The position numbers were made by a program, and so were the translations under genes. From NCBI RefSeq assembly GCF_000337675.1, contig NZ_AOIB01000027.1, forward strand, positions 80,076 to 112,767: a stretch of DNA of 32,692 nt. Reading direction: 5' to 3'. The notes beneath the pieces are model-generated. The model was not told the DNA's origin and made no database searches. It saw nothing but the letters and a program-made list of their open reading frames with translations. Every line of letters starts with the position of its first letter. The stretch's first letter is position 1. Positions 14,441-30,461 of this stretch are shown here, piece after piece. Source of the stretch: Natronococcus amylolyticus DSM 10524 (GTDB lineage: Archaea > Halobacteriota > Halobacteria > Halobacteriales > Natrialbaceae).

Positions 14441-14818
14441 TCACGTGCTCGGTAGCATGCGTTTGATCCGGGCGACGACCTCGTTCGGGCTGAATGGCTT
14501 GGTGACGTAGTCGGTCGCGCCGCGCTCGAAGCCCTCAACGACATCATCCTCACGCGACCGTGCGGTGAGCATCAACACAGGAAGATCGGCGAGAGTGTCT
14601 TCGTCTCGAATTCGCTCGAGGACCTGAAATCCGTCCATCCGCGGCATCATCACGTCAAGCACCACGAGGTCAGGCAATTCATCGGTTTCCTGAAGGTGAT
14701 CGATGCATGCTCGCCCGTCTTCGAACGTTGTCACGTCGAACCCGTTCGCCTGGAGTTTGAACGTCAGAAGTTGTTGGATGTCCTCATCGTCTTCGGCGAT
14801 GACGATCGATCGAGTCAT
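14441..14818 (-). CDS. Single-domain response regulator (125 aa)
   Basis: A complete receiver domain and nothing else. Acidic Glu9, Asp10 and Asp11, phosphoacceptor Asp55 in LVVLDVMMPRMDG, the switch Thr85 in LMLTARS and Lys107 in VTKPF are all present. With no output domain, it must act by protein contact (for example on the HEAT protein) or as an intermediate in a phosphorelay. The start overlaps the stop of the upstream GAF-HisKA gene (ATGA at 14,815-14,818). Confidence 0.92.
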   Translation of the reverse strand: MTRSIVIAEDDEDIQQLLTFKLQANGFDVTTFEDGRACIDHLQETDELPDLVVLDVMMPRMDGFQVLERIRDEDTLADLPVLMLTARSREDDVVEGFERGATDYVTKPFSPNEVVARIKRMLPST

Positions 14819-16422
14819 TGGTCAGTCACCCCAGATCCCGTAGCGTCTCCTTCTCTGTGTGAGGAATCTACCGGTGTCGAGATGAGTGTCGAGGCCAAGT
14901 CCGTGGCGTTGAGCGGTCGCTGAACGAACAGCCTCCCACCGATTGTGTATCGTGGCTCGGTTTCTGTCCGTGACTGATCGACGAGTAGGACTGGAAGTCG
15001 GCGTCCGCCCCGACGCTCGCGAAAGATCCGTGTCCCCTCTCTCACAGTATCGGTCCCATTCGTCGCGCCGGAGAGCCCCTCGGTCCGAACGAGGCCAACA
15101 TCGTACTCCCTCTCTCGATGTACCGTCCGCGCCTTGTCAAGGTCGGTGACCACCGTCACTTGCCACGATTCGGGGAGGACAACCGCTTCCTCATCCGCCG
15201 TTGTATCAAACATTAAGACGTCAATTCGCTCCTCATCGTTTACATCGAGAAGGGTTTCGGTCGCCTCAAGAACAACGGCCGGCTTCTCCGAAAGATACGC
15301 GGACACACCGAGCTGGGGTGACCCCGTCGATTCATCCCGGACGATCGACAGTGCAACGATTGACGCCTCCTCGTAGTCTGCATTCCGGCATACCTCCTCA
15401 GCAAGCCCGATTCCATCACCGTCCTTGGCAAGCAGGTCGACGACGATTACTGATGGGGGATCGTCGCGGATCGCTTCCCGTGCAGCCGAGCGGTCGTCGG
15501 CGATCACGACGTCATAGCCGATATCGTGGAGCTGCTCTACTAGCAGGCCAGAGACCTCCTCATTTATGTCTATGAGCAGGAACGGTCCATCAAGTGAACC
15601 AAGGACGTCTGACTGATCAAGTTCCGACCGCTTATCCCATTCCTCGCGAACGCGTTCGATCCTCCCGTCGAATGCTGAATTCAGTGTTTCGAGAGCGGCG
15701 TCTAGTTCGGTCGCCTTTCGGAGGACGAGCTGTGCGAGTGATTTCTGCTCGTCCGTCAACGACCCAACGTCCTCGTCTGCAAGCATCTCCATATACCCGA
15801 GAATCGACGTCAGCGGCGTCCGGAGTTCGTGCGAGGCCTGCTCGAGAACGTCTCGCTGGAAGTCCGTGAACGCGTACAGCTGCTCTTCCCTCGAGTCAAC
15901 CTCCTCTCGCAACATCAAGCGGTCAAGCCGGGCGTCGACGATCCAGCCCAGGAGCTCAGCGTAGCGAACGTCATCCTCGTCAAACCCGTCGTCCGTGACG
16001 AGCTGTAACACGCCGGCCTCACCGATCGGCGTACAGAGTGCCTGGCCACTTCCGAAGGGGACGTCCACGTCGGCCGCGTCCGTCCCACCCTCGACAACAA
16101 TCGTCTCGTTTCGATCGACGGCCGCGTCGATCCTGGAACCCGTGACCGGGAGTTGCCGTCTACGCTCGGTCGTGTCGGGCGGAGTACTGGTGATTGTGGC
16201 CCATCGCTCCTCACTTCGAACGATGACCACGGCGTAACGGAGCTCGAACAGCTCGTACGTGGCGTGTATCACGGCGTCGTAGATCGCGGTTTCGGTTGGA
16301 CGACCGGCTAGACGGGTTGCAACGCGGTGGAGGAGTTCAAGCCGGGGCAGTGTATCGACTCCTGTATCGGATGTCTCCATGTCGACCTCGTTATCTTGCG
16401 GATGTTCTTCTTTATCTGTCAT
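14815..16422 (-). CDS. GAF-HisKA-receiver protein lacking an ATPase domain (535 aa)
   Basis: The order is GAF-like sensor (about residues 25-170), a coiled stretch, a HisKA phosphoacceptor helix pair with His198 in SHELRTPLTSILGY, a receiver-like domain from about 272 (FLLIDINEEVSGLLVEQL, VIVVDLLAKDGDGIGLAEEV, YLSEKP), and a second, poorly conserved receiver-like region after about 385 (IDVLMFDTTADEE). The N, G1 and G2 boxes of a HATPase_c domain are missing: the HisKA helices run straight into the receiver. It therefore probably cannot phosphorylate itself and may act as a phosphotransfer hub fed by the kinase encoded just upstream. The ATG at 16,422 overlaps that kinase gene by 11 bases; an upstream in-frame start 16 codons earlier is less likely. 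Confidence 0.85.
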   Translation of the reverse strand: MTDKEEHPQDNEVDMETSDTGVDTLPRLELLHRVATRLAGRPTETAIYDAVIHATYELFELRYAVVIVRSEERWATITSTPPDTTERRRQLPVTGSRIDAAVDRNETIVVEGGTDAADVDVPFGSGQALCTPIGEAGVLQLVTDDGFDEDDVRYAELLGWIVDARLDRLMLREEVDSREEQLYAFTDFQRDVLEQASHELRTPLTSILGYMEMLADEDVGSLTDEQKSLAQLVLRKATELDAALETLNSAFDGRIERVREEWDKRSELDQSDVLGSLDGPFLLIDINEEVSGLLVEQLHDIGYDVVIADDRSAAREAIRDDPPSVIVVDLLAKDGDGIGLAEEVCRNADYEEASIVALSIVRDESTGSPQLGVSAYLSEKPAVVLEATETLLDVNDEERIDVLMFDTTADEEAVVLPESWQVTVVTDLDKARTVHREREYDVGLVRTEGLSGATNGTDTVREGTRIFRERRGGRRLPVLLVDQSRTETEPRYTIGGRLFVQRPLNATDLASTLISTPVDSSHREGDATGSGVTDQ

Positions 16423-19400
16423 GAATGTATTTCTCTCCTTCGCGAATTGGTCGATGTGTGGAATCCGCATCGGCGGTCACGATCTCGAATCGGGCGCCCC
16501 CCTCGGACCCTTCGGTGATTGAGATCTCCCACCCGTGCGCGTCGACGATGTCGGTGACGATCGCCAGCCCGAACCGACGCTCCGCGTCATCATCGTCAAA
16601 CTGTCGGTCAGTAAGCAGCGCCTTGCGTTCCGCTTCGGGAATGCCGGGCCCGTCATCCTCAAGGTAAAATCCTCGGTCGCGATCGAGGTCCCCGACGTGA
16701 ACGGTGACGTCGATGCCGCCGTGCTCGATTGCGTTCCGAAAGAGGTTCTCGAACAGCTGGGTCAGTCGGAGGGGATCCCCCTCGACCATTGTCTCGCCTT
16801 CCAAAAGGAGGCGTGCCTCATCGGTTCGGACGGTCGACCACGCCTGTGTAGCGACGTGGTCGATGTCGATGGGCTCTACTTCCCCAATCTCTTTGCCTGC
16901 TCGCGCGAGTGCGAGCAGGTTCTCGACAATCTCGGCTGTTCGATCAACCCCCTCTTCGACCTTCTGCAGATGACGACTGTCTCCTCCTTCCAGTTCGAGT
17001 TCGAGATAACCCTTCGCGACGGTCAGCGGATTTCTGATGTCGTGAGCGACGACGCTCGCGAATTCCTCGAGACGGTCGTTCTTCCGTTCGAGTTCGCGTT
17101 CTCGCTGTTTGAGCGCCAGCTCCCGGTCGGCACGGGTAAGTGCGCTCGTCGTCAGCGCTGCCAAGATGGTACCGAACTCGCGATCGTACTCATCGAAGTT
17201 CCTGTCCCGAAACGACCCACAGATCAATACACCGTGGTCGCCGAGCGGAAATAGCATCTCGCTTCGGATCGGTGTATCTGGATTGTGCACGTTCGGGGCG
17301 GCGGCTACGTCTCCAAGCATCTGTGGCTCGTCGTTCTCGAAAACCTTCCAGGCAACGCTGTTCCCCGGCCGAAAGACAGGTTGTTCGTCGAAGAGATCAT
17401 CCGCTCGATCGGTCGTCGCGAACGGTACCAGGGCGTTCTCCTCGGAGTCGTAGCTCCAGACGCCTGTTATCGGAAGGTTGAGAACCTCGTTCGCGGTCTC
17501 GGTCGCGATCTGAGCGATCGATACCGGTGTACTCGCGTTCATCAGCTGGGAGCCGACAGTGGTCAACGAGTGAAGCACTCGCTCGCGTTCTTTCACTTCC
17601 GTAATCTCCGTCGCGATACCATAGAGCGTGTAGAACTCGCCCTCCTCGTCGAAGAGCGGAATCACCGTGGTCAGAAACGTACGGCGACGGTCGCCGATCC
17701 ACGCTTCCTCTTCGTTCCTGATAGGTTCACCGGCTTCAATGGCTTGGCGTTCGAGCGTTCTGTTGCCTTCGATCGCGTTTTCGCCGTAGACATCATCGGC
17801 TGTCTTTCCAATGAACGCGTCTCGCGGAAGTCCAAGCAGTTCTTCATACTGTTTGTTGACGTACTGATAACGTCCCTTCGGGTCCTTTTTGTACACCACC
17901 GCGAGTGCGTTGTCAAGGACAGACTGGAGTTCGGCCTTGGCCCTCTCTACTTCCTCCCGGAGAACCTTTCGCTCGGTGATATCTGTAATGAATCCTTCGA
18001 GTGCGACCAGTTCGTTGCTCTCGTCGTAGACGCCGGTTCCCTGCTCCCAAACCCACCTTTCGCCGCCGTCCTTCGTCACGATTCGGTACTCCACTTCAAA
18101 GCTCTCCTCGACGTCGAAGGCGTCCTGAATCGTCTCCCAGACGGTTTGCTGATCATCGGGATGGATTATGTCGCCACCCCACGTCACTACCTCATTTTCG
18201 ACTACGTCCGCATCGTAGCCGGTAAGTTCCCGACAGGAGCCACGAACGAACTCCATTGGCCATTCGGATTCATTAGCACACCGATAGACCACACCCGGTA
18301 AATTGTCGAACAGTCGTGAGAGGTACAGTTCGCGCTCCCGTCGCTCGGTTATGTCGCGGATGCCGCAGACTAATCCGCCGGATTCCAACCCCGTGAGCGT
18401 GAGCTCCTGCGGAAACCGGGTCCCATCGACCCTCCTTCCAACTGCCTCCCCTCGCCACTCGCCTTCGCGCCCGATTTCCGGCATGATCTCCGACTCGAAG
18501 CGTTCGAGCTCCGCCTCGTCGTAAAGGATGCGCCAACTCTCGCCGATCAGTTCGTCGGGATCCTCGAACCCGTACATCTCAGCGTGGGCAGAATTTGCGT
18601 AGACGTACTCGTCGTCTTTGTCGAGGATCGCGATTCCTTCCATCGATATCTCGATCGCCGAGTGAAGCCGTCGTGCCTCGCGTTCGAGACGATCACGTTC
18701 GGTGATGTCACGGACGATGGCAAGTAGGAAGTCGTTGCCCTGTATCGTAACGCGTTTCAGATTGACGTCGATCAGCCGCTGTTCGCCATCCTTGCGTTCG
18801 ATTTTCCACTCGAATTGACTCTCTCCCTGTTCGACGGCATGTTGGATCCGTTCGAGGGCCTCCTCCTGTGAGTATTCAGGACTGTCGACGCTGAAGTCAC
18901 CGACGGTGAGCTGTTTGAGTTCCTCGATTGCATAGCCGTAGACAGATTCGGCTGTCGGGTTCGCATCAAGAATCTGTCCTGTTTCGATGTCATGTACGAG
19001 GATCCCTTCGTTGACTGCGTGGAAGATCTCCTCATAGGCGGGCATCGTGAACGGTTTCCCCTCGCTGTCTTCGATCGTATTGACAGTTTGGTTCTCGATA
19101 ATATTGATGACTCTTTCGACAAGTTCCCTGTACGCGTCCGTATCATCATGTCTTGCAACGTACTCATCTACCTCTAGTAAGGTCGCCTCACTCCCATCCT
19201 CGACGAATAGGACGACTGGCACGTCGACGTCGGCAGTCTGGTGGGCTATCTCAGTCCCAGGTTTTTCCCCAAGGTGGTACCCACTAACGACGCAGTCGAT
19301 ACTCCGTTCATGTATTAGTTCGAGCGCTGAATTGACTGTTTGGGCGTTGAACGCAGTCACATCGTATGGGGTCCTCTTCTGTATAGCGGCACTGATTTGA

Positions 19401-19477
19401 TCACGCGTATCGAAATCGAACCCGACATACAGGAGCGTGAGTCCCGCTGGGGACGTACCGGTCTCGTGACCTGTCAT
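16412..19477 (-). CDS. Multi-PAS/GAF sensor histidine kinase (1021 aa)
   Basis: First gene of the operon. An N-terminal receiver-like domain (about 12-125) has SGYHL where the phospho-Asp motif should be, so it is likely inactive. Four PAS domains follow (about 145-265, 265-385, 385-510, 510-635; PAC ends ending in RDITERDRLE, RDITERRERE, TDITERKVLR and TEITEVKERE), then a GAF domain (about 640-790). HisKA has the acceptor His in VVAHDIRNPLTV, and HATPase_c has the N box LFENLFRNAIEHGG, G1 DDGPGIP and G2 RFGLAIV. No membrane segments are seen, so it is a cytoplasmic sensor, probably of redox state, light or small ligands through PAS/GAF. It is the only complete kinase of the operon and presumably phosphorylates the downstream proteins. 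Confidence 0.9.
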   Translation of the reverse strand: MTGHETGTSPAGLTLLYVGFDFDTRDQISAAIQKRTPYDVTAFNAQTVNSALELIHERSIDCVVSGYHLGEKPGTEIAHQTADVDVPVVLFVEDGSEATLLEVDEYVARHDDTDAYRELVERVINIIENQTVNTIEDSEGKPFTMPAYEEIFHAVNEGILVHDIETGQILDANPTAESVYGYAIEELKQLTVGDFSVDSPEYSQEEALERIQHAVEQGESQFEWKIERKDGEQRLIDVNLKRVTIQGNDFLLAIVRDITERDRLEREARRLHSAIEISMEGIAILDKDDEYVYANSAHAEMYGFEDPDELIGESWRILYDEAELERFESEIMPEIGREGEWRGEAVGRRVDGTRFPQELTLTGLESGGLVCGIRDITERRERELYLSRLFDNLPGVVYRCANESEWPMEFVRGSCRELTGYDADVVENEVVTWGGDIIHPDDQQTVWETIQDAFDVEESFEVEYRIVTKDGGERWVWEQGTGVYDESNELVALEGFITDITERKVLREEVERAKAELQSVLDNALAVVYKKDPKGRYQYVNKQYEELLGLPRDAFIGKTADDVYGENAIEGNRTLERQAIEAGEPIRNEEEAWIGDRRRTFLTTVIPLFDEEGEFYTLYGIATEITEVKERERVLHSLTTVGSQLMNASTPVSIAQIATETANEVLNLPITGVWSYDSEENALVPFATTDRADDLFDEQPVFRPGNSVAWKVFENDEPQMLGDVAAAPNVHNPDTPIRSEMLFPLGDHGVLICGSFRDRNFDEYDREFGTILAALTTSALTRADRELALKQRERELERKNDRLEEFASVVAHDIRNPLTVAKGYLELELEGGDSRHLQKVEEGVDRTAEIVENLLALARAGKEIGEVEPIDIDHVATQAWSTVRTDEARLLLEGETMVEGDPLRLTQLFENLFRNAIEHGGIDVTVHVGDLDRDRGFYLEDDGPGIPEAERKALLTDRQFDDDDAERRFGLAIVTDIVDAHGWEISITEGSEGGARFEIVTADADSTHRPIREGEKYIHDR

Positions 19478-19577: not shown

Positions 19578-19665
19578 CACTGTCTAGTTCAGCACCACCT
19601 CAGCTGGCGTTTTTCCATCAAGCGATTGATGCGGTCTCTGGTGAGTGTGCCGCGTGATTAATGCT
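19578..19665 (-). mobile_element. 3' remnant of an integrase-type IS transposase
   Basis: On the minus strand this encodes THQRPHQSLDGKTPAEVVLN and a TAG stop (19,584-19,586), the C-terminal signature of an rve-type (IS3/IS481-like) transposase. It is followed by the conserved end AACTAGACAGTGC. The same end, coding for YYNRQRPHQALDGKTPIEEV, is at 32,607-32,692 in the same orientation. Only about 25 codons survive here, so this is a truncated relic lying between the kinase promoter and the M24 gene. Confidence 0.75.
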
Positions 19666-19721: not shown

Positions 19722-20894
19722 ATGTCTCGTCTCACAGTACCGAAATCCACACACATCGAACGAAAAGAAGAGCTACTAGACCGCGCCAGATCTGATGGGT
19801 ATGAGGGGATAGTCCTCTTTGGATCGTTGAATATCCACTATATCAGTGGAATGTATCACTTGCCGACGGAGCGGCCCGTTGCCCTTGGTATCACTGCAGA
19901 CTCTGTTGAAGCCATTGTCCCACGGCTGGAAAAAGAGCATGCAACCCGTGACGACTTTTTGATTGATGACGTCACTGTCTATTTCGAATATCCGCAAGGT
20001 AATCCAATGAAAACTGTGGCTGAAATGTGTGATCGACTTGGTATTGCTGATGGCGCGATAGCAGTTGATGCGGATGGAAGTCCAGCACGAAATGGGTACA
20101 CTGGTCCAGCGCTCTCAGAACTCGTCTCCGCAGATGTTGGCGTTGAAGACTATATTACGGATATGCGTGAACTCAAGGGAGAGCACGAAATCGAGCTTAT
20201 TCGTGAATCCAGCGCCTGGGCTAATCTCGGACATCGACTCCTTCAGGAACAGATTGAGCCTGGTCGCCGTCCAATTGAGGTTCGAGCAGAAGTCGAAGCG
20301 GATGCAGTGAAGATGATGCTCGATACGCTTGGTGATCGGTATGAGATGCGATCCTGGGCTAATCCGATGCAGTGCCTGTTCACTACGGGAGATGTCACTT
20401 CTCTCCCACATAGTATGGATCAGACAACACGAATAGAGCAGGGAGATAACATCGTTACAATAGTCAAACCCAACATAGGCGGCTATACTACTGAGCTCGA
20501 GCGAACACTGTTCGTTGGTGAGCCAACGGGCGATCAGCGAACGTATTTCGAGATTATGAAGGAGTCTCAAGAGATCGCAATTGAAATGATCGAACCTGGT
20601 GTCGAGTACGCTGCTATTGAGGAAGCTGTTGTTGACTACTACCAAGAGCAAGGGGTTTCTGAGTACGTACAACACCACGTCGGTCATAACATCGGTTTGG
20701 AGGGACATGAGAGACCGTTCCTCGATGTCGATTACGAAGGCGAGATCCGCCCCGGCGAACTGTTTACAGTAGAACCAGGCTTTTACGTTCCTGATGTGGG
20801 TGGCTTCAGACACTCCGATACAGTAGTTGTCACCGAAGACGGGACAGAGACCTTGACGTATTATCCACGCGAAATTGATGAATTGATAGTCTAA
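19722..20894 (+). CDS. M24 'pita-bread' hydrolase, creatinase/prolidase-like, non-canonical (390 aa)
   Basis: Two-domain M24 protein: an N-terminal creatinase-like domain (VLFGSLNIHYISGMYHLP, about residues 1-140) and a catalytic pita-bread domain. Of the five metal ligands of aminopeptidase P and prolidase, His (HHVGHNIGLEGHE) and one Glu (FTVEPGFYVP) remain. The first Asp is lost (IVKPNIGGY), the second is Glu (TTELERT), and the last Glu is Ser (GGFRHSDT). This pattern fits metal-independent relatives such as creatinase better than metallopeptidases. The start is the ATG at 19,722, with a TTTTAAG element about 30 bases upstream. It is encoded divergently from a second M24 protein with the same changes, an amidohydrolase and a symporter, suggesting hydrolysis of a C-N bond in a small imported compound. 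Confidence 0.82.
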   Translation: MSRLTVPKSTHIERKEELLDRARSDGYEGIVLFGSLNIHYISGMYHLPTERPVALGITADSVEAIVPRLEKEHATRDDFLIDDVTVYFEYPQGNPMKTVAEMCDRLGIADGAIAVDADGSPARNGYTGPALSELVSADVGVEDYITDMRELKGEHEIELIRESSAWANLGHRLLQEQIEPGRRPIEVRAEVEADAVKMMLDTLGDRYEMRSWANPMQCLFTTGDVTSLPHSMDQTTRIEQGDNIVTIVKPNIGGYTTELERTLFVGEPTGDQRTYFEIMKESQEIAIEMIEPGVEYAAIEEAVVDYYQEQGVSEYVQHHVGHNIGLEGHERPFLDVDYEGEIRPGELFTVEPGFYVPDVGGFRHSDTVVVTEDGTETLTYYPREIDELIV

Positions 20895-21060
20895 GCACGG
20901 TCCAGATCTCCTTGGTCCATCCAGTGATTTGTATCTTCGAGGTTAGTCTGGGTAGATAGGACAATACTGTGCATCGATAGTACTCCTATGAGACCTCGGT
21001 TGCGTTGCCCCGAATAAACAGCAAAAGTATGAATCAGACTGTGGTTCTGAAATGAGAGTC

Positions 21061-22248
21061 CTAATCTGATTGAGAGTGCTCTACGACAATATTGCTCTCT
21101 TTTAGGACTATAGTTGGGTCGGCAGTCGCAGAAATATCTACTAGTGGATTCTCATCGTAGCAGACCAAATCTGCAGGGGTACCTGGCTCGACAATACCGA
21201 GATCTGGTTTTCCGAGTTCAGTCACACCTGCGAGTGTCGCTGCTTCCAATGCGTCCGGTGGGTCCATGCCTTCGTTGACCATTTGCTCGAGTTCCAGATG
21301 GATTGCTGAATGAGGAACGCCTGGAGAACCGGCGTCGCTACCCGCGAGGATACGACAGCCACGAGCTAGTGCTGATTGAAATGCAGCCGTGTGCTGGTCG
21401 TATAGTTCACTGGCGTTCTGCTGGGCGTACTCTGGAATACCATCTCCTCCACCTGCAATCCGCCCATAGACGAACAACGTTGGATCATACGCTTGGTCTT
21501 TAGTATGTAACCGATCGATGAGATCCTCATCAAGCTGATTACCATGCTCGATCGTGTCGACACCAGCCTCAACTGCGTTTTCGATTCCTGATTGGCCAAT
21601 CGCATGGGCAGCGACCGGGAGCCCGAATCGCTCAGCTTCGTCTACGATTGCCTCTAACTCTTCACGTGAGAGTTCGGCTGTCCCAGCGTCTTCTCCAACA
21701 GATTGTCCATAAACACCACCGGTTGCGCTTACTTTGATGAGATCTGCACCAGCGCTGCGAAGTTCGCGAACGGCATTGCGGCAGTCCAAGGGACCGTTGC
21801 TCTCGATGCCCCAAAATGGATCATGGCCTCCAGGAATAATGATTGTCTGTCCGCTGGCATAGGTCCGCGGCCCTTCGACCCATCCCTTTCGAATCGCGTG
21901 GGCGACAGAGACCGCAATATCATCGACGCTACCAACATCACGGATAGTTGTGACACCGCCGTGGAGTTGGTCTCGAGCGTTACGAACAGCACGGAGTGTC
22001 ATCTGCTGTTCTGAATCTGCTCGCAATGTTGCGACTGGGTCTCCGGAGCCATCCCACACCAAGTGAACATGCATATCACATAGGCCAGGGATGATCGTCT
22101 CAGTCTCGATTTCTTTGTGAGCTGAACCAGGGCGTTCTTGGCTTACAGTAGCGATTTCGTGATTGCGCACGCCTACCCAGTGATCGTCACGAAGTCCGTT
22201 CTGGGCGTCCCAGACAGCCCCGTGGATGAGTACATCATACGACGCCAT
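21061..22248 (-). CDS. Metal-dependent amidohydrolase, imidazolonepropionase/Xaa-Pro-dipeptidase-like (395 aa)
   Basis: Amidohydrolase superfamily TIM barrel with all expected ligands: His60 and His62 (DMHVHL), Lys172 as the probable carboxylated bridge (DLIKVSATGG), His215 (AAHAIG), His235 (TIEHGN) and Asp307 (AGSDAG). The N- and C-terminal strands form the usual small beta domain (GTPADLVCYDENPL). It resembles the group annotated as Xaa-Pro dipeptidase or imidazolonepropionase-like, whose studied members hydrolyse dipeptides or N-acyl amino acids. The ATG overlaps the M24 stop as TGATG, so it is the third gene of the symporter-M24-amidohydrolase operon. Substrate not determinable from sequence. 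Confidence 0.85.
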   Translation of the reverse strand: MASYDVLIHGAVWDAQNGLRDDHWVGVRNHEIATVSQERPGSAHKEIETETIIPGLCDMHVHLVWDGSGDPVATLRADSEQQMTLRAVRNARDQLHGGVTTIRDVGSVDDIAVSVAHAIRKGWVEGPRTYASGQTIIIPGGHDPFWGIESNGPLDCRNAVRELRSAGADLIKVSATGGVYGQSVGEDAGTAELSREELEAIVDEAERFGLPVAAHAIGQSGIENAVEAGVDTIEHGNQLDEDLIDRLHTKDQAYDPTLFVYGRIAGGGDGIPEYAQQNASELYDQHTAAFQSALARGCRILAGSDAGSPGVPHSAIHLELEQMVNEGMDPPDALEAATLAGVTELGKPDLGIVEPGTPADLVCYDENPLVDISATADPTIVLKESNIVVEHSQSD

Positions 22249-23411
22249 CAGTCGACTCGTAGGACGCCAGCATTGGTCTCTGTGACGCTCTCTGCGCCGC
22301 TTTCGGTAATAATGAGGGTGTCAGAGTGTCGAAGCGCATTCCCCTTCTCGTGAAAATATAACCCCGGCTCGATGCTGATCACCATTCCCGGCTCGAGCTC
22401 TCCTGTCTTTTGTGCGTTCAATGCGGGTTGCTCGTGGATCGTGATTCCCTCTCCGTGACCTGTTCTGTGTTGCACGTAGTCACCGAAACCTCGAGATTTG
22501 ATTTGCTCGTATGCCCACTGATCGATCTCTCCAACGTCTTTGCCGGGTTCGACTCGGTCAATAACCTGCTCACGAACATCGACCAGCATTTCCATTCCCT
22601 CCTCAATTTCATCGTCGACGTCTCCAACGAGGAATGTCCGTTCTTCCTCGCAAATGTACCCCTGAACCGACGGCAAGGCAATTCCGACGACGCTGTCGCC
22701 GCCTTCGATCATGCGCGAGGATGAGAGGCTATGTGGTTCAAGTCCGTGTGGTCCAGAAAGGATACTAGCAAACCCGTACTGTCCGAGTTCGTTTGCTGTT
22801 CCGATATCGAACTCACTGTGCTTGTCAAGGTAGGTATCGTAATACGCTTGTTGGACCTCCGCAACGACCTCAATTTCGGGTTTTCCAGAGCGGACTGACT
22901 CAAACATTGCCTCACAGCCAGCCGTCGCCAAATCCTGTGCTCGACGGATTTTGTCGAGTTCCCAGTCTGTCTTCACAATACGAAGCGAATAGAAATGGTC
23001 CGTCGCATCGACGAAATCAGCATTACTCTGGGCAGAAAGGCTCTCGACCCAGCTGGGTTGCGCTTTTGCAGCATCATAACCGAGTGTCTCAGCTGAGTCG
23101 GGGATGGCTGCCGCCAGTATCTCGAATGGGTTGTCGCTATCCTCGTACGTTAGTACACGGTCGGTCCACGCAGTTCGTCTGGCCTTTCGTTCCTCTAACC
23201 GAGGGCCAACAAATGCGCTTTCTGACGGCGTCACGACTCCGAGAACTGGTCTGGAATACATCCCAGCATAACAGCCAGTCAGATAGTATGAGTTCGCTGG
23301 CGAAAACCCGATTAGCCCATCTAGATCGCTTTCACTTAGATAGTCTCGAATCTTCTCGAGTCGCTCGTCGTCTACGAATTGATCCTCTGGTTCTGGTGAA
23401 AAGTCGTGCAT
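22248..23411 (-). CDS. Second M24 'pita-bread' hydrolase, non-canonical (387 aa)
   Basis: A paralogue of the protein at 19,722 with the same fold: an N-terminal domain with LIGFSPANSYYLTGCYAGMY and a C-terminal pita-bread domain. It shows the same loss of metal ligands: no Asp in VGIALPSVQGY, Glu for Asp in CEEERT, Ser for Glu in ALRHSDT. The His (HRTGHGEGITIHE) and Glu (ISIEPGLYF) are kept. Shared substitutions in both copies argue for a distinct functional subfamily rather than decay. It starts directly after the symporter stop (no gap) and overlaps the amidohydrolase start, making a tightly coupled three-gene operon. Confidence 0.83.
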   Translation of the reverse strand: MHDFSPEPEDQFVDDERLEKIRDYLSESDLDGLIGFSPANSYYLTGCYAGMYSRPVLGVVTPSESAFVGPRLEERKARRTAWTDRVLTYEDSDNPFEILAAAIPDSAETLGYDAAKAQPSWVESLSAQSNADFVDATDHFYSLRIVKTDWELDKIRRAQDLATAGCEAMFESVRSGKPEIEVVAEVQQAYYDTYLDKHSEFDIGTANELGQYGFASILSGPHGLEPHSLSSSRMIEGGDSVVGIALPSVQGYICEEERTFLVGDVDDEIEEGMEMLVDVREQVIDRVEPGKDVGEIDQWAYEQIKSRGFGDYVQHRTGHGEGITIHEQPALNAQKTGELEPGMVISIEPGLYFHEKGNALRHSDTLIITESGAESVTETNAGVLRVD

Positions 23412-24827
23412 CTATGATGCCTCCATTGGTTCTGTTACAACTTCTCCATCTCTAGTTATATAACTAACCACAAGGATGGAAAGCAGTGCAGCAGGTGCAG
23501 CGATTACGACTGCATCAGTTTCGATCGGTGTCCCGAGCAGGGGGTCCCAGGCAATTGCAATACTCGCACCGACGAGCATTCCTGAGATTCCACCAGCTTT
23601 AGTGAGTCGATTCCTCATGAGGAAAACGGCCATCAGCGGAACGGTGATCGCGGCCCCGTATGCTGTGTAGGAATACATCTGGAGCTCGAGAATCGTCGGG
23701 AAGAATTCTCCGAGAACAAATGCAAAGATTCCTAGAGCGATGACCAGTCCCCGCGTAAACCAGGCAACCCTGGATGAAGATGCATCGGGGTTTACGAAGT
23801 TACTGTACAGGTCATGTGAAATATTCGTACTTGCTGAAAGCAAGTATGAGCTTCCCGTCGTAATGATGAACGCTGAGACTGCAGCAAGCAGTAGTCCACC
23901 GATCCAAGTCGGAATAACAGTTGTTACCGCGACCAGTGCCATTCCTGGATCCCCTAGCTCTGGGAACATGGCACGGGAGGCAAACACGAAAACAGGGATG
24001 ATCGTCATCGCTACACCGACACCGATGAACCACCCAATAATTCCCCGATTACTGCTCTCGTCACTGTCTCCAGCAAGGATTCGTTGATACATATTCTGAT
24101 CGCCCAAGATCAGCAAAAAGAACGGTGCCCAGAAGCCCAAGAACTGGAGGAATGTCAGGTCTCCGAGCAGATTGGTATGTGTATCCGGTGTTTCCGCGAC
24201 GATGTTGCCCCAACCGCCTGCACTCGAGAGGACGAACGGGACCGCGACAATTAATCCGAATATCATCAGAAAGGCACTGATGGCGTCTGTATAGGAAACG
24301 GACATTAGGCCACCCATCGCTGCCAGACTAATAATGACTACAGCACCAATGATTGTCCCTTGTGTGACAGAGATCCCGGTAGAAACGTTCAGCACGAATC
24401 CAAACCCGATGAACTGGTAGGAGACGATCCCAACGTATGCAAACGCAATAACGATCATTCCGATCACTCGACCTTCCCAGCCAAGTGCGTCCTCCAGCAT
24501 CTCTGGGATAGTGATTTCACTCCCAGCCCTAATGCGCGGAGCTAGGACTTTGAGGATTACAATCCCGATCAGTGCTGCACTCATAAACAGAATTGCTGGC
24601 ACAAATCCGTTTGCGTACCCAATCGAGGTAGGGCCACCAGTAACGGTCCCAGAGCCCATCCACGTTGCCATCAATGTCCCAGCTATGATTACGGCACCAA
24701 GGCTTCGTCCAGCGAGCAAGAAGTCCTCTGCAGTGTTTGTTTTCTTGTACGCCCAGACACCAACACCCAGCATCACTACGAGGTAGGCTGCTACTATGTA
24801 GAACAGTGTTATGTCAGAATCTACCAT
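23412..24827 (-). CDS. Sodium:solute symporter family (SSS) transporter (471 aa)
   Basis: About 13 membrane segments across 471 residues, in the LeuT-fold SSS family (proline PutP, pantothenate PanF and urea transporter relatives). Family features are the N-terminal FYIVAAYLVVMLGVGVWAYKKT, AEDFLLAGRSLG, the ATWMGSGTVTGGPTSIGYANG sodium-site region, and ITIPEMLEDALGWEGRV. First gene of the operon with the M24 and amidohydrolase genes, so it most likely imports their substrate using the sodium gradient. The ATG at 24,827 has a TATA box at 24,852-24,859, giving a leaderless or near-leaderless transcript. Confidence 0.9.
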   Translation of the reverse strand: MVDSDITLFYIVAAYLVVMLGVGVWAYKKTNTAEDFLLAGRSLGAVIIAGTLMATWMGSGTVTGGPTSIGYANGFVPAILFMSAALIGIVILKVLAPRIRAGSEITIPEMLEDALGWEGRVIGMIVIAFAYVGIVSYQFIGFGFVLNVSTGISVTQGTIIGAVVIISLAAMGGLMSVSYTDAISAFLMIFGLIVAVPFVLSSAGGWGNIVAETPDTHTNLLGDLTFLQFLGFWAPFFLLILGDQNMYQRILAGDSDESSNRGIIGWFIGVGVAMTIIPVFVFASRAMFPELGDPGMALVAVTTVIPTWIGGLLLAAVSAFIITTGSSYLLSASTNISHDLYSNFVNPDASSSRVAWFTRGLVIALGIFAFVLGEFFPTILELQMYSYTAYGAAITVPLMAVFLMRNRLTKAGGISGMLVGASIAIAWDPLLGTPIETDAVVIAAPAALLSILVVSYITRDGEVVTEPMEAS

Positions 24828-24851
24828 AGGTACGAGATTCTGAAGCAGATC

Positions 24852-24859
24852 GTATAAAT
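24852..24859 (-). promoter_or_regulatory. TATA box of the symporter/M24/amidohydrolase operon
   Basis: Minus-strand ATTTATAC is about 28 bases upstream of the symporter ATG at 24,827. Confidence 0.55.
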
Positions 24860-25103
24860 GCTATGGCGGTCATGGTCGGTCAAATCTAGTTGGGGTACTT
24901 CGTCTATACGCCAACTGACCGGCAATCCAGTGACTGAGGCTGGCATACCGATCAACGTCGTCTGTTGCTGGGTCGGGTTTAGACTGGATCGCTGCAAAGC
25001 GATAGCCATCCATGTCGGGAGACTACTCTTTGCTCAACTTGACACACTTGAGCTGTCTGCGGTAGGTCACGCTCCAGGCTTCGTCGTTGTTCTTGAGTCT
25101 TTG

Positions 25104-25146
25104 TTAACCAACACTGCGAAAGAAAGAACCGGCCTTTGTTGGTTAA
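25104..25146. repeat. TTAACCAACA inverted repeat, copy 1
   Basis: TTAACCAACA (25,104-25,113) and its exact complement TGTTGGTTAA (25,137-25,146) are 23 bases apart. The same 10-bp pair with a 22-base spacer occurs at 31,319-31,360, with extra shared flanks (G before the left arm; CTTTGTTGGTTAAGA on the right). The spacers are otherwise different. Confidence 0.7.
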
Positions 25147-25212
25147 GACGAGAGATCTTCGAGGACGTTCCGGCTCAATCAGTTGATTGTTCAGAGTGAG
25201 AGATGAAGTCCC

Positions 25213-25474
25213 CGAGTACCAGCACGGCGAGTAGCCGAATGCGAAAGTCGGGCAATAGGTTCAGCGTGATCGGAACAGGGCTGAAGAAATGAGTGGGAGT
25301 ATCCGATTGCTCGAGAACATTCGGAGCAAGCGCTGAATTCACCGAACACATCAATATCGAGCACGCCCGCGAGTACCAGCGTGGCGACTGGCCAGATACC
25401 GAGGCCGGGCAGCAGGCTCGGCGTGATTGCGACGGGAGTACGAACACGGATGAAGGGTGAGTGATTGCTCGAGC
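25213..25474. repeat. Imperfect direct repeat of about 105 bases, 157 bases apart
   Basis: The stretch from 25,213 (CGAGTACCAGCACGGCGA, then GGGCAATAGGTTCAGCGTGAT and ATTGCTCGAG at about 25,307) is echoed from 25,370 (CGAGTACCAGCGTGGCGA, then GGGCAGCAGGCTCGGCGTGAT and ATTGCTCGAG at about 25,464). Identity by eye is moderate. On the minus strand both copies encode hydrophobic peptides containing ITPSLLPGLGIWPVATLVLAG or ITLNLLPDFRIRLLAVLVLG. Perhaps the relic of a duplicated small membrane-protein gene. Confidence 0.45.
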
Positions 25475-25579
25475 AGCCTGCCCTGCCAGCGAGTTGTACG
25501 CGCCATCGCCGTTATTTAGCAAGGCTCGGTGATACTGTGAACGGTATTATGACGAGTATCTCATTTTCTCCTATTGTGG

Positions 25580-26779
25580 CTAGAGTGTTGAGGTGGGAAC
25601 GATGGCGGTTCCATACTTGCCTGCTTCGACTGTCTCACGGATCTCTTCGAGATCACTCGTTATAGTAAGTGCAACAATAAGATGTATGCGAGCTTTCCAG
25701 ACTGGGAGGTCTTCCATTGAAACGTCAGTACCCTCCTCATCGGACGGTGACGCTGGGCCATCGAAGTTTCGTGTACTGCTGACAACGGGAATACCAGCAT
25801 CGAGAGTAGCTTCAACTGCGTCGCTTATCGCAGGTGACGTTCCGCCACGACCCGAATGTTGTACTGCGAACCCATCAGCATCGTATTTCCCATTAACCGC
25901 TTGTTCCATCAGCGGTGCTTCAGCCCCGGCTCCCGTCGCGACGATTGGGACCGTCATTTCAGGCGTTGCCTCGAGGTCACAGTCAGAGAGATTTGAGGAA
26001 TAGCTTCCCGGTTCGCGGTAGATTAGTATCTCGTCATCAGTGAAACGAGCGATCGGACCGGGCGATCCAGAGGAGAACGTCTCTAGTGACCATGCGTCGG
26101 ATTTCATGATGTCACGGGCGGCATGTACTGTTTCGTTCAAAAGAGCGTAAACTCCACTTGGTTCATCAGAGAGATGGAACTCATTGCGAGTGACAAGGCG
26201 CGCTGCTAAAAGCAGATTCGATGGACCATCAGCAACGATTGCATCTGCGGGACGCATTGCGCCGACAAATACAACGGGAATATCCAGATCTAACACCAGA
26301 TCGTTAAAGTATGCATCTTCTTCGATTGTGTTCGTCCCGTGAGTGACGATGACACCAGCAGCACCGTCTTCCTCGGCTTGTTTCGCTGCCTTTGCAACAC
26401 TCACATAATCCTCGACCAAAAGACTGGGGCTTCCCTTTTGCGCCGCCTCCGCGATTTCGATGTCAACGAAGTGCTCTAATTCTGGAACGGATTCGACGAT
26501 TGCGTCTGCTTCTTCGGAGAGACTATAGCCTTCATCAGCAGCCTCTTCTGTACTCGCGATGGTTCCACCGGTTTGTACAAGCCGTACCAACGGCCGCTCG
26601 TCTTCGTCAGGTAGCTCTACGTCTTCTAACATCTCTTCGGCGGACTGTGCCGTTGCCGCCCCGCTAGCGAGGGCTGTCCCACCTGCGGCTCCCGCAAGCT
26701 GGAGGAACGATCTCCTGTTTGGCAGAAAGCTGCCAGTTTCATCTCCCATCGATGCTTTTTCAGCATGTTTGTCTGCCAT
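25580..26779 (-). CDS. Tat-exported asparaginase-like amidohydrolase with altered active site (399 aa)
   Basis: The ATG at 26,779 is preferred to a GTG seven codons earlier. Twin arginines at 22-23 (NRRSFLQLAGAAGGTALASG) mark a Tat signal, so the enzyme is probably exported. The mature part has the type II L-asparaginase fold: TGGTIAS with nucleophile Thr73, Tyr85, THGTNTIEEDAYF with Thr149, VGAMRPADA and the C-terminal VWKARIHLIVALTITSDLEEI. Two changes stand out. The invariant Asp of HGTDT is Asn150, and the lysine of the second catalytic triad (K162 in E. coli AnsB) has no clear counterpart. It may act on a substrate other than asparagine or be weakly active. It lies beside the symporter operon on the same strand, but 750 bases away. 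Confidence 0.82.
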   Translation of the reverse strand: MADKHAEKASMGDETGSFLPNRRSFLQLAGAAGGTALASGAATAQSAEEMLEDVELPDEDERPLVRLVQTGGTIASTEEAADEGYSLSEEADAIVESVPELEHFVDIEIAEAAQKGSPSLLVEDYVSVAKAAKQAEEDGAAGVIVTHGTNTIEEDAYFNDLVLDLDIPVVFVGAMRPADAIVADGPSNLLLAARLVTRNEFHLSDEPSGVYALLNETVHAARDIMKSDAWSLETFSSGSPGPIARFTDDEILIYREPGSYSSNLSDCDLEATPEMTVPIVATGAGAEAPLMEQAVNGKYDADGFAVQHSGRGGTSPAISDAVEATLDAGIPVVSSTRNFDGPASPSDEEGTDVSMEDLPVWKARIHLIVALTITSDLEEIRETVEAGKYGTAIVPTSTL

Positions 26780-26938
26780 AGCGCTTGAGAGTTCGATCAC
26801 TTGTTAATAGATTTTCGCCTATTATGTCCTGTTCAGGCTATACAACATATTAGTTATTAAATGCAGCATGGAGGTGGCCCAATATTCATTGATCAGCCAG
26901 TCAAAGAGGAGGTAAGTGAATGTTCCTACACCCATATA

Positions 26939-27110
26939 TTAGAATCTATTCTCTTCATCGGTTAGCCCCTTGTCGGACACTCGCTTTTTGATACGGCAAG
27001 CCCGCTTTCCATCGAGTCGTTCCTACGTTAACTCTCCGCCGAACTCGGCTTCGATCTCAGACCGATTTTCGAGTAACGTGTTTGAGGCACAGTGTTCAAG
27101 ATGGTCGGCT
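26939..27110 (-). pseudogene. DUF4268-like C-terminal remnant with an in-frame TAG
   Basis: Minus-strand translation gives LLENRSEIEAEFGGELT, a TAG (27,023-27,025), then ERLDGKRACRIKKRVSDKGL and a TAA at 26,939-26,941. This resembles the C-terminal block of DUF4268 proteins (EIEAEFG...L-x-W-x-R-L-x-x-x-R-A-x-R-I), where a Trp codon (TGG) stands in place of the TAG. No N-terminal part exists, because the adjoining DNA is the MutS-family gene on the other strand. A truncated relic, assigned from motif memory. Confidence 0.45.
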
Positions 27111-27123
27111 CGAACTCAGAAGT

Positions 27124-28893
27124 ATGCGACTCGAGGAGTATTGGGGAGTCGGTCCGAAGACGCGGGAGACACTGGTCAAGGAGCTGGGTCAAGAGCAAGC
27201 GATCCAAGCGATTGAGAGCGGGGACATACGGACACTCTCCGATACCGGACTCGCCCGGGGACGGGCGACGCGGATTCTTCGCCGGGCGACCGGCGGCGAG
27301 AGAATGGACATCTTGGCCACGAATGATGCCCGATCTGCATACAACGAACTGCTAGACCTCGCTGTCGATCACGCCGTCACCCAGCGCGCAGCCGACCGGA
27401 TCCGGGTGCTTACACCGCTCGAGAGCAAGAAAGCAATGGAAGACCGCCTTGATAACGTGCTCGCGGCTCGAGACGCTTGGGAGGCGCTCGCGGCCGACGA
27501 CCGAGAGGTCGTACTCGCGGCGTTCAACCGCTACGATGAGCGCGATGGGAGTGAACTCGCCGCCGTCGAAGCTGCGCTCGCGCTGCTCGAATCCGGTGTA
27601 AAGTCCGGTCCCTTCGCGTTGATCGCGGATCTCGAGGCCGACGCTCTCGAGGCGGCCGCGGCTGCGCTTGCGGCACTCAACAACGGTCAGGTCCGCGAGG
27701 GAGCAGACGAGGAACTCGACCGGTTGCGCGACACGCTAGGCACAGTCGAGGACATGGATGCGAACGCGCTCGAACTCATCGATGAACTCCAAGACGGCGG
27801 TGTTCAGGACGTCACGGACTTTCGCGAGTCGTTCGAGGCTCGACTCCTCTCCGATACTGATGTCACGGTCGAGCAGGTACGGGAAGCGATGCCGACGAAC
27901 GCGACGGACGCCACAGACTTCGTCGGCGGAACGCTCCGCCGGCTGCGGTCAGACCTCCGAGAGGCCGCCGACGAACGTGAAGAGCGAGTCGCGGAAGAGT
28001 TCGAATCGACGCTCTCAGAGCGGGACGAAGCCATCGAGCAGGCCGTCAGCGCCGTCGACGAAATCGCGTTCCACCTCTCGCTGGCGCGCTTTGCACTCGC
28101 CCACGACTGCACCCGACCGACGTTCAGAGGAGAGGACGGCGCGGCCGTCTCTGTCGTCGCCGCGCGCAACCTTACAGTTGACGCGAGCGGCGAGGACGTT
28201 CAGCCGATCACCTACGCGCTGGGCGACCATACCGTTACCGAGGGGCCCACAGAGGCTGGCATTCCCGGCCAGCAGCACGTCACCGTCCTCACGGGAGCGA
28301 ACAGCGGCGGGAAGACAACCCTGCTCGAGACGCTGTGCCAGATCGTCCTGCTGGCGACGATGGGGCTGCCCGTTCCCGCTGAGCAGGCCGAAGTGACACC
28401 AATTGACGCGCTGGTCTTTCACCGCCGCCACGCGAGTTTCAATGCAGGCGTCCTCGAGTCGACGCTGCGCTCGATCGTGCCGCCGCTATCGGCCGATGGG
28501 AAAACCCTGATGCTGGTCGACGAGTTCGAGGCGATCACCGAACCTGGCAGTGCGGCAGACCTCCTGCACGGACTGGTGACACTGACCGTCGACCGCGAAG
28601 CGCTGGGCATGTTCGTTACCCACCTCGCGGACGACCTCGAGCCCCTGCCGTCCGAAGCCCGCATCGACGGCATCTTCGCAGAGGGGCTGAGTCCCGACCT
28701 CGAGTTGGTCGTCGACTACCAGCCTCGCTTCGACACCGTGGGGCGGTCGACACCAGAGTTCATCGTCTCGAGGCTCGTCGCAAATGCGAGCGACCGAAGC
28801 GAACGCACCGGATTCGAAACGCTGGGAGAGGCCGTCGGAAACGAGGCCGTTCAGCGCACGCTCGCGGACGTTCGCTGGACCGCTGACAAGTAA
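27124..28893 (+). CDS. MutS-family ATPase with N-terminal helix-hairpin-helix region (589 aa)
   Basis: The N-terminus EEYWGVGPKTRETLVKELG and DTGLARGRATRILRRATGG is a helix-hairpin-helix-like DNA-binding segment. Long acidic helices fill the middle (lever/clamp region, about 90-320). The C-terminal MutS ATPase has Walker A TGANSGGKTT (about 389-398) and Walker B LMLVDEFEAITEPGSA (about 461-476). The mismatch-recognition domain of bacterial MutS is absent, as in archaeal MutS-like/MutS5-type proteins; the role may be recombination or DNA-structure processing rather than mismatch repair. The ATG at 27,124 begins directly at the conserved EEYWGVG; upstream TTG/GTG codons would overlap the DUF4268-like relic. 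GC content is high and the frame intact, unlike the neighbouring debris. Confidence 0.85.
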   Translation: MRLEEYWGVGPKTRETLVKELGQEQAIQAIESGDIRTLSDTGLARGRATRILRRATGGERMDILATNDARSAYNELLDLAVDHAVTQRAADRIRVLTPLESKKAMEDRLDNVLAARDAWEALAADDREVVLAAFNRYDERDGSELAAVEAALALLESGVKSGPFALIADLEADALEAAAAALAALNNGQVREGADEELDRLRDTLGTVEDMDANALELIDELQDGGVQDVTDFRESFEARLLSDTDVTVEQVREAMPTNATDATDFVGGTLRRLRSDLREAADEREERVAEEFESTLSERDEAIEQAVSAVDEIAFHLSLARFALAHDCTRPTFRGEDGAAVSVVAARNLTVDASGEDVQPITYALGDHTVTEGPTEAGIPGQQHVTVLTGANSGGKTTLLETLCQIVLLATMGLPVPAEQAEVTPIDALVFHRRHASFNAGVLESTLRSIVPPLSADGKTLMLVDEFEAITEPGSAADLLHGLVTLTVDREALGMFVTHLADDLEPLPSEARIDGIFAEGLSPDLELVVDYQPRFDTVGRSTPEFIVSRLVANASDRSERTGFETLGEAVGNEAVQRTLADVRWTADK

Positions 28894-29308: not shown

Positions 29309-29803
29309 TCAATCGCAAATACACTCGTGGCCAGCAGAAGAGAACGTAAGGACGTATTGGTGGACTACGGTTGCGAGCTCGAGCATCGCATCAGCCTGCT
29401 CAGCGGTTGCCGCTGCCTCTCGGTAGTACACCGCCGCACGGTTTGTTTTCCAGAGATCCAGTAGCCGGTCACCAAACGACTCGCTGAAGAGATTGATCTC
29501 CACGCCTCGTTCGTAGACTGCCGCATGATCATGACGGAGGTCTGCACCGCCTGCAGCATTGCGGTGGATAAGGTAGAACTGGATACTCCGTTCGATGGCG
29601 ACGAACGAGGTCTCGATGACAACAGTGTGGTGGCCGTTGCGCTCGCGGAGCGTAGTAGCAGCCTCGAGAAGGCGACAGGCCTTCCGGAGTTGAACAAGGG
29701 CTTCATCGGAGACATCGAGTCCTGTCTCGAGTGAGTGACCACGAGTATCTTCGAATGCTCTCTCAGCTGCCTCGAGTGCCGTGTCGACGTCGCTATTATC
29801 CAT
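29309..29803 (-). CDS. HEPN-domain protein of an MNT-HEPN pair (164 aa)
   Basis: An all-helical protein with the HEPN pattern (EALVQLRKACRLLEAATTLRER, VVIETSFVAIERSIQFYLIH, NLFSESFGDRLLDLWKTNRAAVYYREAAAT). HEPN toxins use R-x4-6-H for RNA cleavage. Here the corresponding position reads NRAAVYYREA, with Tyr127/Tyr128 where His is expected, so RNase activity is doubtful, or a different chemistry such as AMPylation of tyrosine by the partner is possible (tyrosine AMPylation is known in other MNT-HEPN pairs). The start overlaps the nucleotidyltransferase gene by 8 bases, the classic arrangement for this toxin-antitoxin type. Confidence 0.75.
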   Translation of the reverse strand: MDNSDVDTALEAAERAFEDTRGHSLETGLDVSDEALVQLRKACRLLEAATTLRERNGHHTVVIETSFVAIERSIQFYLIHRNAAGGADLRHDHAAVYERGVEINLFSESFGDRLLDLWKTNRAAVYYREAAATAEQADAMLELATVVHQYVLTFSSAGHECICD

Positions 29804-30461
29804 TCGTCAGTACCTCTGTCTTGAGGTCTTGTAGTGGTCCCGTATCGTACAGCGTGAGTCCGTCGGCGAAGATTTCTTGCAGTCGATCTGCTTGGCGTGT
29901 AGCCGAATCGCTGGACTCGACTAGTATCTCGAAGGCGTATCTGTCGCCATCGAATTGCCGATCTCCCAGCTCCTGGGCGAGTTCGTGAGCTCGCTTCTGG
30001 CTCGTCGCTCGGTTGTCATCGACGAGAACAAAGCAATCGATATCACTTCGTCGGTCAGCGTGCCCTCGAGCGACGCTTCCGAAGAGCAGGATTCCAGTGA
30101 CGTCCTCGAGCGTCTCGAGGAGTCGTTCTTTGAGCGTACGAACGGGATCTCGAAATTCGTCCTGTGGGATCCGAAGGATTGGATCGTCGGGAACGTTGAG
30201 TCGGTCGCGATTGATTTGAACGAGCTTCTTTCGCCCTTCGGTGATCGTTACAAGGTCGAGTGATTCGAGATCGTCAACAGCGAGCGAGACGCTACGAGGA
30301 GGACGGTCGATCGCACGTCCGAGGTCTCGAATGCCAAAAGCTGAGTGTGGAGTATCCGTGAGAAGTGAGAGAATCGGGCCGCAGGCGGTGTGTCTGAATA
30401 CATCCTCATTTGGGAGGGGAATAGGGAGTGCAATAGATTGCTGTTTAACCTTGTTATCCAT
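29796..30461 (-). CDS. Winged-helix fused to MNT nucleotidyltransferase (antitoxin) (221 aa)
   Basis: Residues about 22-90 form a winged helix (GPILSLLTDTPHSAFGIRDLGRAIDRPPRSVSLAVDDLESLDLV). Residues about 110-190 form a minimal nucleotidyltransferase with the Pol-beta signature LLFGSVARGHADRRSDIDCFVLVDD (Gly128, Ser129, Asp140, Asp142). It is a MNT-type partner of the overlapping HEPN gene and probably neutralises it by nucleotidyl transfer, while the winged helix could autoregulate the operon. The palindrome GTATTATAC lies directly upstream of the start (about 30,470-30,478), a candidate operator. The ATG at 30,461 opens a frame with no better alternative. Confidence 0.82.
   Translation of the reverse strand: MDNKVKQQSIALPIPLPNEDVFRHTACGPILSLLTDTPHSAFGIRDLGRAIDRPPRSVSLAVDDLESLDLVTITEGRKKLVQINRDRLNVPDDPILRIPQDEFRDPVRTLKERLLETLEDVTGILLFGSVARGHADRRSDIDCFVLVDDNRATSQKRAHELAQELGDRQFDGDRYAFEILVESSDSATRQADRLQEIFADGLTLYDTGPLQDLKTEVLTNG

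Follow-up and report, generated by a model that had tools for sequence, protein, structure and literature searches.

The window analysed here, a stretch of 32,692 nt that lies at the end of contig C27 in a Halobacteriales genome of 4.4 Mb (G000, the source genome), encodes an SSS-family Na+:solute symporter, two paralogous M24 proteins (M24a and M24b) and an amidohydrolase. These four genes are one module, shuffled among haloarchaea. With a probability of roughly 0.45, it is a mobile catabolic module through which the cell takes up a compound that yields proline and hydrolyses it with metal-free M24 enzymes of the creatinase type and a binuclear-metal amidohydrolase. A preliminary description of the window had grouped these genes; the loss of metal ligands in M24a and M24b and the link to proline both go beyond it.

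Three of the genes form a minus-strand operon, in which the symporter (23412-24827; PF00474, E=2e-39) is followed by M24a (22248-23411; PF00557, E=1.8e-41, and PF01321) and the amidohydrolase (21061-22248; PF01979, E=4e-36). The translational coupling proposed in the preliminary description is borne out by the DNA: the symporter stop codon TAG directly abuts the M24a start, with zero gap (GCATCATAG followed by ATG; junction 23409-23414), and the M24a stop TGA shares one base with the amidohydrolase ATG (TGATG, 22247-22251). The second M24 gene does lie nearby on the opposite strand, M24b (19722-20894, plus strand; PF00557, E=2.6e-41, and PF01321) being convergent with the operon and about 166 bases from the amidohydrolase.

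Orthologues of M24b (58-82% identity) were found in 23 of 392 Halobacteriales genomes, source genome included. Below them lies a separate, widespread group at 42-49% identity, and relatives at E<=1e-75 occur in 161 of the 392. At all 23 M24b loci, 15-19 kb were read, with gene maps based on tblastn because greedy open reading frame (ORF) calling is misleading at high G+C content (GC). An importer adjoins M24b in 23/23. In 18, source included, it is an SSS orthologue, usually divergent, and in five a PotABCD-type ABC transporter (PotD/PotA-type genes); the two never occur together in the 23 stretches, and the importers are interchangeable. M24a orthologues (58-73%) are present in six genomes including the source, five in an M24b neighbourhood and one adjoining the symporter gene (G186). 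Amidohydrolase orthologues (53-68%) are present in five, again including the source, every one at most 5 kb from M24b. SSS orthologues (61-72%) adjoin M24b or M24a in other genomes, and 11 of the 15 genomes with such an orthologue, among 243, have one of the two nearby. A run of M24b-M24a-amidohydrolase is present in each of three further haloarchaea, Halolamina salifodinae (L032/L089), Haladaptatus pallidirubidus (L034/L151) and G207 (L088). Where orthologues of the module recur, they are placed either divergently or as a polycistronic unit. A search for related loci with a single query sequence returned Halolamina only. The neighbourhood survey thus found the co-occurrence in other genomes on which the preliminary description had staked its view of symporter, both M24 proteins and amidohydrolase as one functional neighbourhood.

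M24a and M24b carry the M24 / Xaa-Pro peptidase family label of Pfam and NCBI, and neither reaches an NCBIfam equivalog cut-off. The metal ligands of Pyrococcus furiosus (Pfu) prolidase we take to be D209, D220, H284, E313 and E327. The residues at Pfu H192, D209, D220, T222, H284, H291, E313 and E327 are H D D T H H E E in the prolidase itself and, in the same alignment, H I E E H H E S in M24a and M24b. The five metal-ligand columns show I-E-H-E-S, with E at T222, in all rows of both proteins, the M24a residue at D209 being Ile or Ala depending on the alignment. Thus three of the five prolidase metal ligands (D209, D220 and E327) are gone, the five-ligand M24B set is incomplete, and a plain prolidase identity is rejected. 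Both proteins have the creatinase-type residues, a Glu262 equivalent (x-L-E-R-T) and a His232 equivalent. In the PDB alignment, H232 and E262 of creatinase (1chm) fall on H230 and E260 of M24b (Glu260 codon at 20499-20501, plus strand), with GAHN...GYYTALERTLF in creatinase against LPHS...GYTTELERTLF in M24b. The corresponding set is H227, E255 (at D220), E257 (at creatinase E262), H319, E348 and S363 (at E327) in M24a, and R51, H230, E258, E260, H322, E351 and S365 in M24b. H230, E258, E260, H322 and E351, together with R51, are invariant across 18 sequences sharing 27-81% identity with M24b. The 42 metal-poor rows all fall in a single clade, which has support values of 100/97, is recovered in 99% of bootstrap trees and includes M24a, M24b and the widespread group. 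A third M24 gene adjoining several modules has a complete metal-ligand set in the same alignment. Deinococcus plasmid proteins, 36-40% identical, have the same signature as M24a and M24b; at the plasmid loci L149, L150 and L153 the metal-poor M24 belongs to a conserved set with an Opp-type ABC transporter, a DUF885-like protein and an IclR regulator. For creatinase, a metal-free hydrolysis of creatine through these His and Glu residues is established, reportedly by Coll et al. (1990; cited in PMC4108388). Judged by the replaced ligands, M24a and M24b appear to be of the creatinase type and not of the metallopeptidase type.

The AlphaFold model of M24b is of high quality (pLDDT 93.5), and the pita-bread fold with a Creatinase_N domain is found in M24b by Pfam, model and structure search. 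For M24a it is found by Pfam only, as the model, built from six sequences, is too poor for a fold search (pLDDT 64.8). In VIA-align, creatinases are the top three matches to the M24b model (Z 41.3-41.6, root-mean-square deviation 2.3 over 375-376 residues), followed by a Xanthomonas Xaa-Pro dipeptidase (Z 39.9) and, lower, other prolidases, with the ectoine hydrolase DoeA at 36-37; the creatinase lead over the next prolidase is about 1.4-1.7. By Foldseek E-values, however, Pyrococcus prolidases come first, and prolidases also rank first in the sequence profile search (alignment A1). A search with the N-terminal fragment did not reach creatinase, and one with the C-terminal fragment listed it at low rank. 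As creatinase is first only by structural Z, similarity alone is not decisive and the residue evidence bears the argument.

The link to proline comes from neighbouring genes in relatives. After M24b, 11 genomes of the same family carry genes for an HTH_10 regulator and an aldehyde dehydrogenase (ALDH), and in five of them proline dehydrogenase (ProDH) adjoins these. In Halolamina salifodinae, in a different gene order, ProDH and a metal-type M24 adjoin the M24b-M24a-amidohydrolase run. On pNMAG02 of Natrialba magadii, a relative (44%) with the same active-site glutamates has as neighbours a metal-type M24, a peptide transporter of the Opp type, a helix-turn-helix (HTH) regulator, ProDH and ALDH. 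A related metal-free M24 gene is adjoined by HTH-ProDH-ALDH in G344, and ProDH is near such a gene in G031. The proximity of M24 genes to the proline cassette occurs in at least three gene orders. With ProDH present once or a few times in a genome of 4 Mb, we estimate the chance of finding one within about 10 kb at roughly 1% per locus. Adjacent ProDH and ALDH resembling pyrroline-5-carboxylate (P5C) dehydrogenase are found in relatives; in the source genome HTH-ProDH-ALDH is on a different contig (G000:C13). Elsewhere the cassette occurs with a sodium/proline symporter, a proline racemase or FAD oxidoreductases, and because of these various partners it looks like a proline-oxidation core joined to varied proline-supplying genes.

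The amidohydrolase carries HVH (60-62), the Lys of LIK (170-172), the His residues of AAHA (213-216) and EHG (234-236) and the Asp of SDAG (304-307). By motifs and by alignment with 3be7, the HxH, Lys, His, His and Asp of the binuclear-metal subtype are therefore all present. Its group (COG1228 type) holds Xaa-Pro dipeptidases, arginine carboxypeptidases and aminoacylases or acyl-amino-acid hydrolases. It scores 250.7 bits with the Xaa-Pro dipeptidase model NF051886, short of the cut-off of 500, which was exceeded in none of 59 Halobacteriales genomes.

From these observations a route can be proposed. The Na+ symporter, or the PotABCD-type ABC transporter in other species, would import a small proline-containing compound. 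M24a and M24b, as metal-free paralogues, would hydrolyse a C-N bond by means of a His-activated water and a Glu-bound substrate, by analogy with creatinase, and the binuclear-metal amidohydrolase may carry out a further amide cleavage. Released proline would pass to glutamate through ProDH and ALDH, for which the source genome has its cassette on contig C13. Peptidyl-, acyl- or amidino-substituted proline would be a fitting substrate class. The preliminary description had spoken of one compound with C-N bonds; the route agrees with this, and the linkage to proline oxidation restricts the compound to a proline-yielding one. A hydrolytic activity of the M24 pair by a creatinase-like mechanism, the order of the steps and proline as the product are inferred. 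A wider proposal, held slightly more tentatively, is that the whole metal-free creatinase-type clade of haloarchaea and Deinococcus plasmids, labelled 'Xaa-Pro peptidase', performs a new C-N hydrolysis, for example of modified or N-substituted proline, opening an undescribed archaeal proline-yielding pathway.

Several observations weigh against this route. An SSS orthologue is present without M24 genes in 4 of the 15 genomes, and the full set of symporter, M24a, M24b and amidohydrolase is seen in the source window only. E258, E260, H322 and E351 of M24b might still hold one metal ion. The 11 same-family M24b-HTH_10-ALDH loci share their synteny and amount to about one event, and in six loci only ALDH and HTH are adjacent, ProDH being not adjacent. 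At 11 of the 23 M24b loci, among them that of the window, the stretch read is devoid of proline genes; the link may therefore partly reflect shared synteny in one family.

The enzymes may act on other substrates. The M24 pair could be diverged prolidases degrading Xaa-Pro dipeptides, perhaps with one metal coordinated by the newly gained glutamates and the His and Glu still present, and with the amidohydrolase as a supporting prolidase. The prolidase fold, archaeal PepQ-type prolidases as best sequence matches, an Xaa-Pro dipeptidase as the amidohydrolase's best model (250 bits), Opp-type peptide ABC transporters adjoining relatives in Natrialba magadii and Deinococcus, and a true metal-type M24 adjoining some modules all agree with this. 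It is nevertheless unlikely, as no member retains D209, D220 or E327 and the creatinase-position Glu is invariant, and the separate M24 with complete ligands kept beside some modules argues that the metal-poor pair act differently. Alternatively, the pair could split a creatine-like or arginine-derived guanidine or a cyclic amidine, after the amidohydrolase had removed an acyl or peptide group, the product reaching glutamate via proline/P5C enzymes. The creatinase-type catalytic residues, the top structural likeness to creatinase, the arginine carboxypeptidase 3be7 among the amidohydrolase's nearest solved relatives and the PotABCD-type importers in five genomes would suit such a route. However, no urea, sarcosine or ornithine genes were recognised in the neighbourhoods read, the comparison with the creatine-binding residues of creatinase covers the E262 and H232 positions, and the ectoine-hydrolase-like proteins of the source genome have a quite different signature; we regard a guanidino substrate as quite unlikely.

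Catalysis itself might be absent. M24a and M24b would then be pseudoenzymes regulating or scaffolding the amidohydrolase and transport, as the lost metal ligands and the FACT Spt16 N-domain among the structural matches of M24b could suggest; an M24 pseudoenzyme is exemplified by a PA2G4 homologue (PMC3888471). A scaffold would not need the putative catalytic set and R51 that are invariant over 18 sequences, which makes this improbable. That unrelated catabolic genes were gathered by recombination in a mobile low-GC island could explain the GC of the window and the likely transposase remnant adjoining M24b. However, the same genes are adjacent across several haloarchaeal families in differing orders. 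As an account of the whole neighbourhood chance is hardly credible: it is refuted for M24a, M24b, the amidohydrolase and the symporter, and holds for the asparaginase.

The preliminary description had included this asparaginase-like enzyme, as an exported protein, in a chain of processing from periphery to cytoplasm. The type II asparaginase (PF00710/PF17763) is indeed encoded at 25580-26800, as a gene of its own on the minus strand, some 750 bases upstream of the symporter gene, and its export is upheld by a twin-arginine (Tat) signal match (TAT_signal_seq) on NRRSFLQLAGAAGG of 19.4 bits, above the cut-off of 16.7; its ORF extends to 26800, not to 26779 as given before. Of 23 genomes searched, which bear the module or are related to its bearers, only two have a match at E<=1e-60, and neither match lies in the neighbourhoods read: in G057 a relative (43%) is 14 kb away from M24b, and the other match is unlinked. 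With no conserved linkage, the asparaginase is ruled out as a member of the module, and the periphery-to-cytoplasm chain therefore fails.

The GC of the window is 0.545, compared with about 0.66 elsewhere in the genome, on stretches of C13, C26 and C43, and over the contig end (G000:C27:70000-112767) it is mostly 0.46-0.61 per 2 kb step, which suggests a plasmid or island. Immediately upstream of M24b, the minus-strand translation of 19583-19640, QRPHQSLDGKTPAEVVLN followed by a stop, resembles the C-terminal end of an IS-type transposase. It is likely an insertion-sequence remnant, consistent with a mobile island. Just before M24b, 14815-19477 (minus strand) encodes a 1021 aa multi-PAS/GAF histidine kinase and a 551 aa HisKA/receiver protein. 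A MutS-domain-V protein at 27082-28893 (plus strand) has a GC of 0.64, above its surrounding genes. A nucleotidyltransferase-domain protein (family F19), at 29796-30461 (minus strand) in the window and also at L036 and L041, lies about 10 kb or less from the module in three genomes.

No paper on haloarchaeal creatinase-like proteins or on the present module was found in the literature library searched. If these proposals are correct, proteins that automatic annotation names 'Xaa-Pro peptidases' are no metallopeptidases and should be renamed; 161 of the 392 Halobacteriales genomes hold a relative of M24b. A nutrient route of salt-lake archaea would become testable with few enzymes and substrates, and there would be a naturally occurring comparison between metal-dependent enzymes and apparently metal-free ones that share a fold, at times in one cluster.

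Each component resembles a known system and departs from it. The symporter's best NCBIfam model is PutP (TIGR02121), and homologous modules are adjoined by HTH_10-ProDH-ALDH cassettes, recalling PutP-type proline symporters and haloarchaeal proline cassettes. However, it scores 148 bits against a cut-off of 515, which rules out a PutP identity, it is 26% identical to a Halopiger protein annotated as a sodium/proline symporter, and its closest solved structures are choline transporters. The amidohydrolase shares the HxH, Lys, His, His and Asp metal set with Xaa-Pro dipeptidases and Zn arginine carboxypeptidases (NF051886; 3be7, 3mtw, 2qs8), but at half the cut-off score, in a group that also includes N-acyl-amino-acid hydrolases. 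The ectoine hydrolase DoeA/EutD (TIGR02993; 6twk, 6yo9) is a hydrolytic M24 relative that opens a C-N bond of a small solute. M24a and M24b score only 47-48 bits against its cut-off of 613, and EutD-like proteins of the same genome read E-P-A/T-Y-E-I-S where M24a and M24b read I-E-E-H-H-E-S; an ectoine hydrolase identity is ruled out by score and signature. These EutD-like proteins (G000:C26:133293-134453 and G000:C33:15118-16275; L164 and L165) themselves score 475 and 417 bits, their ligand signature is unlike prolidase, the creatinase type or M24a/M24b, and a match is also present in Haloferax volcanii. Archaeal prolidase PepQ (1pv9, 1wy2; NF040821) gives the best sequence matches and has the same two-domain pita-bread architecture, but M24a and M24b reach 152 and 137 bits against a cut-off of 630 and lack its D209, D220 and E327. 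Creatinase (creatine amidinohydrolase; 1chm, 7yto, 1kp0) is matched over the full-length fold and at His232 and Glu262, with the prolidase-type Asp ligands absent. It differs in its 21-23% identity and in having Ala where M24b has Glu258, and its genetic context is unlike the proline genes, amidohydrolase and PotABCD or SSS importer of the M24b loci.

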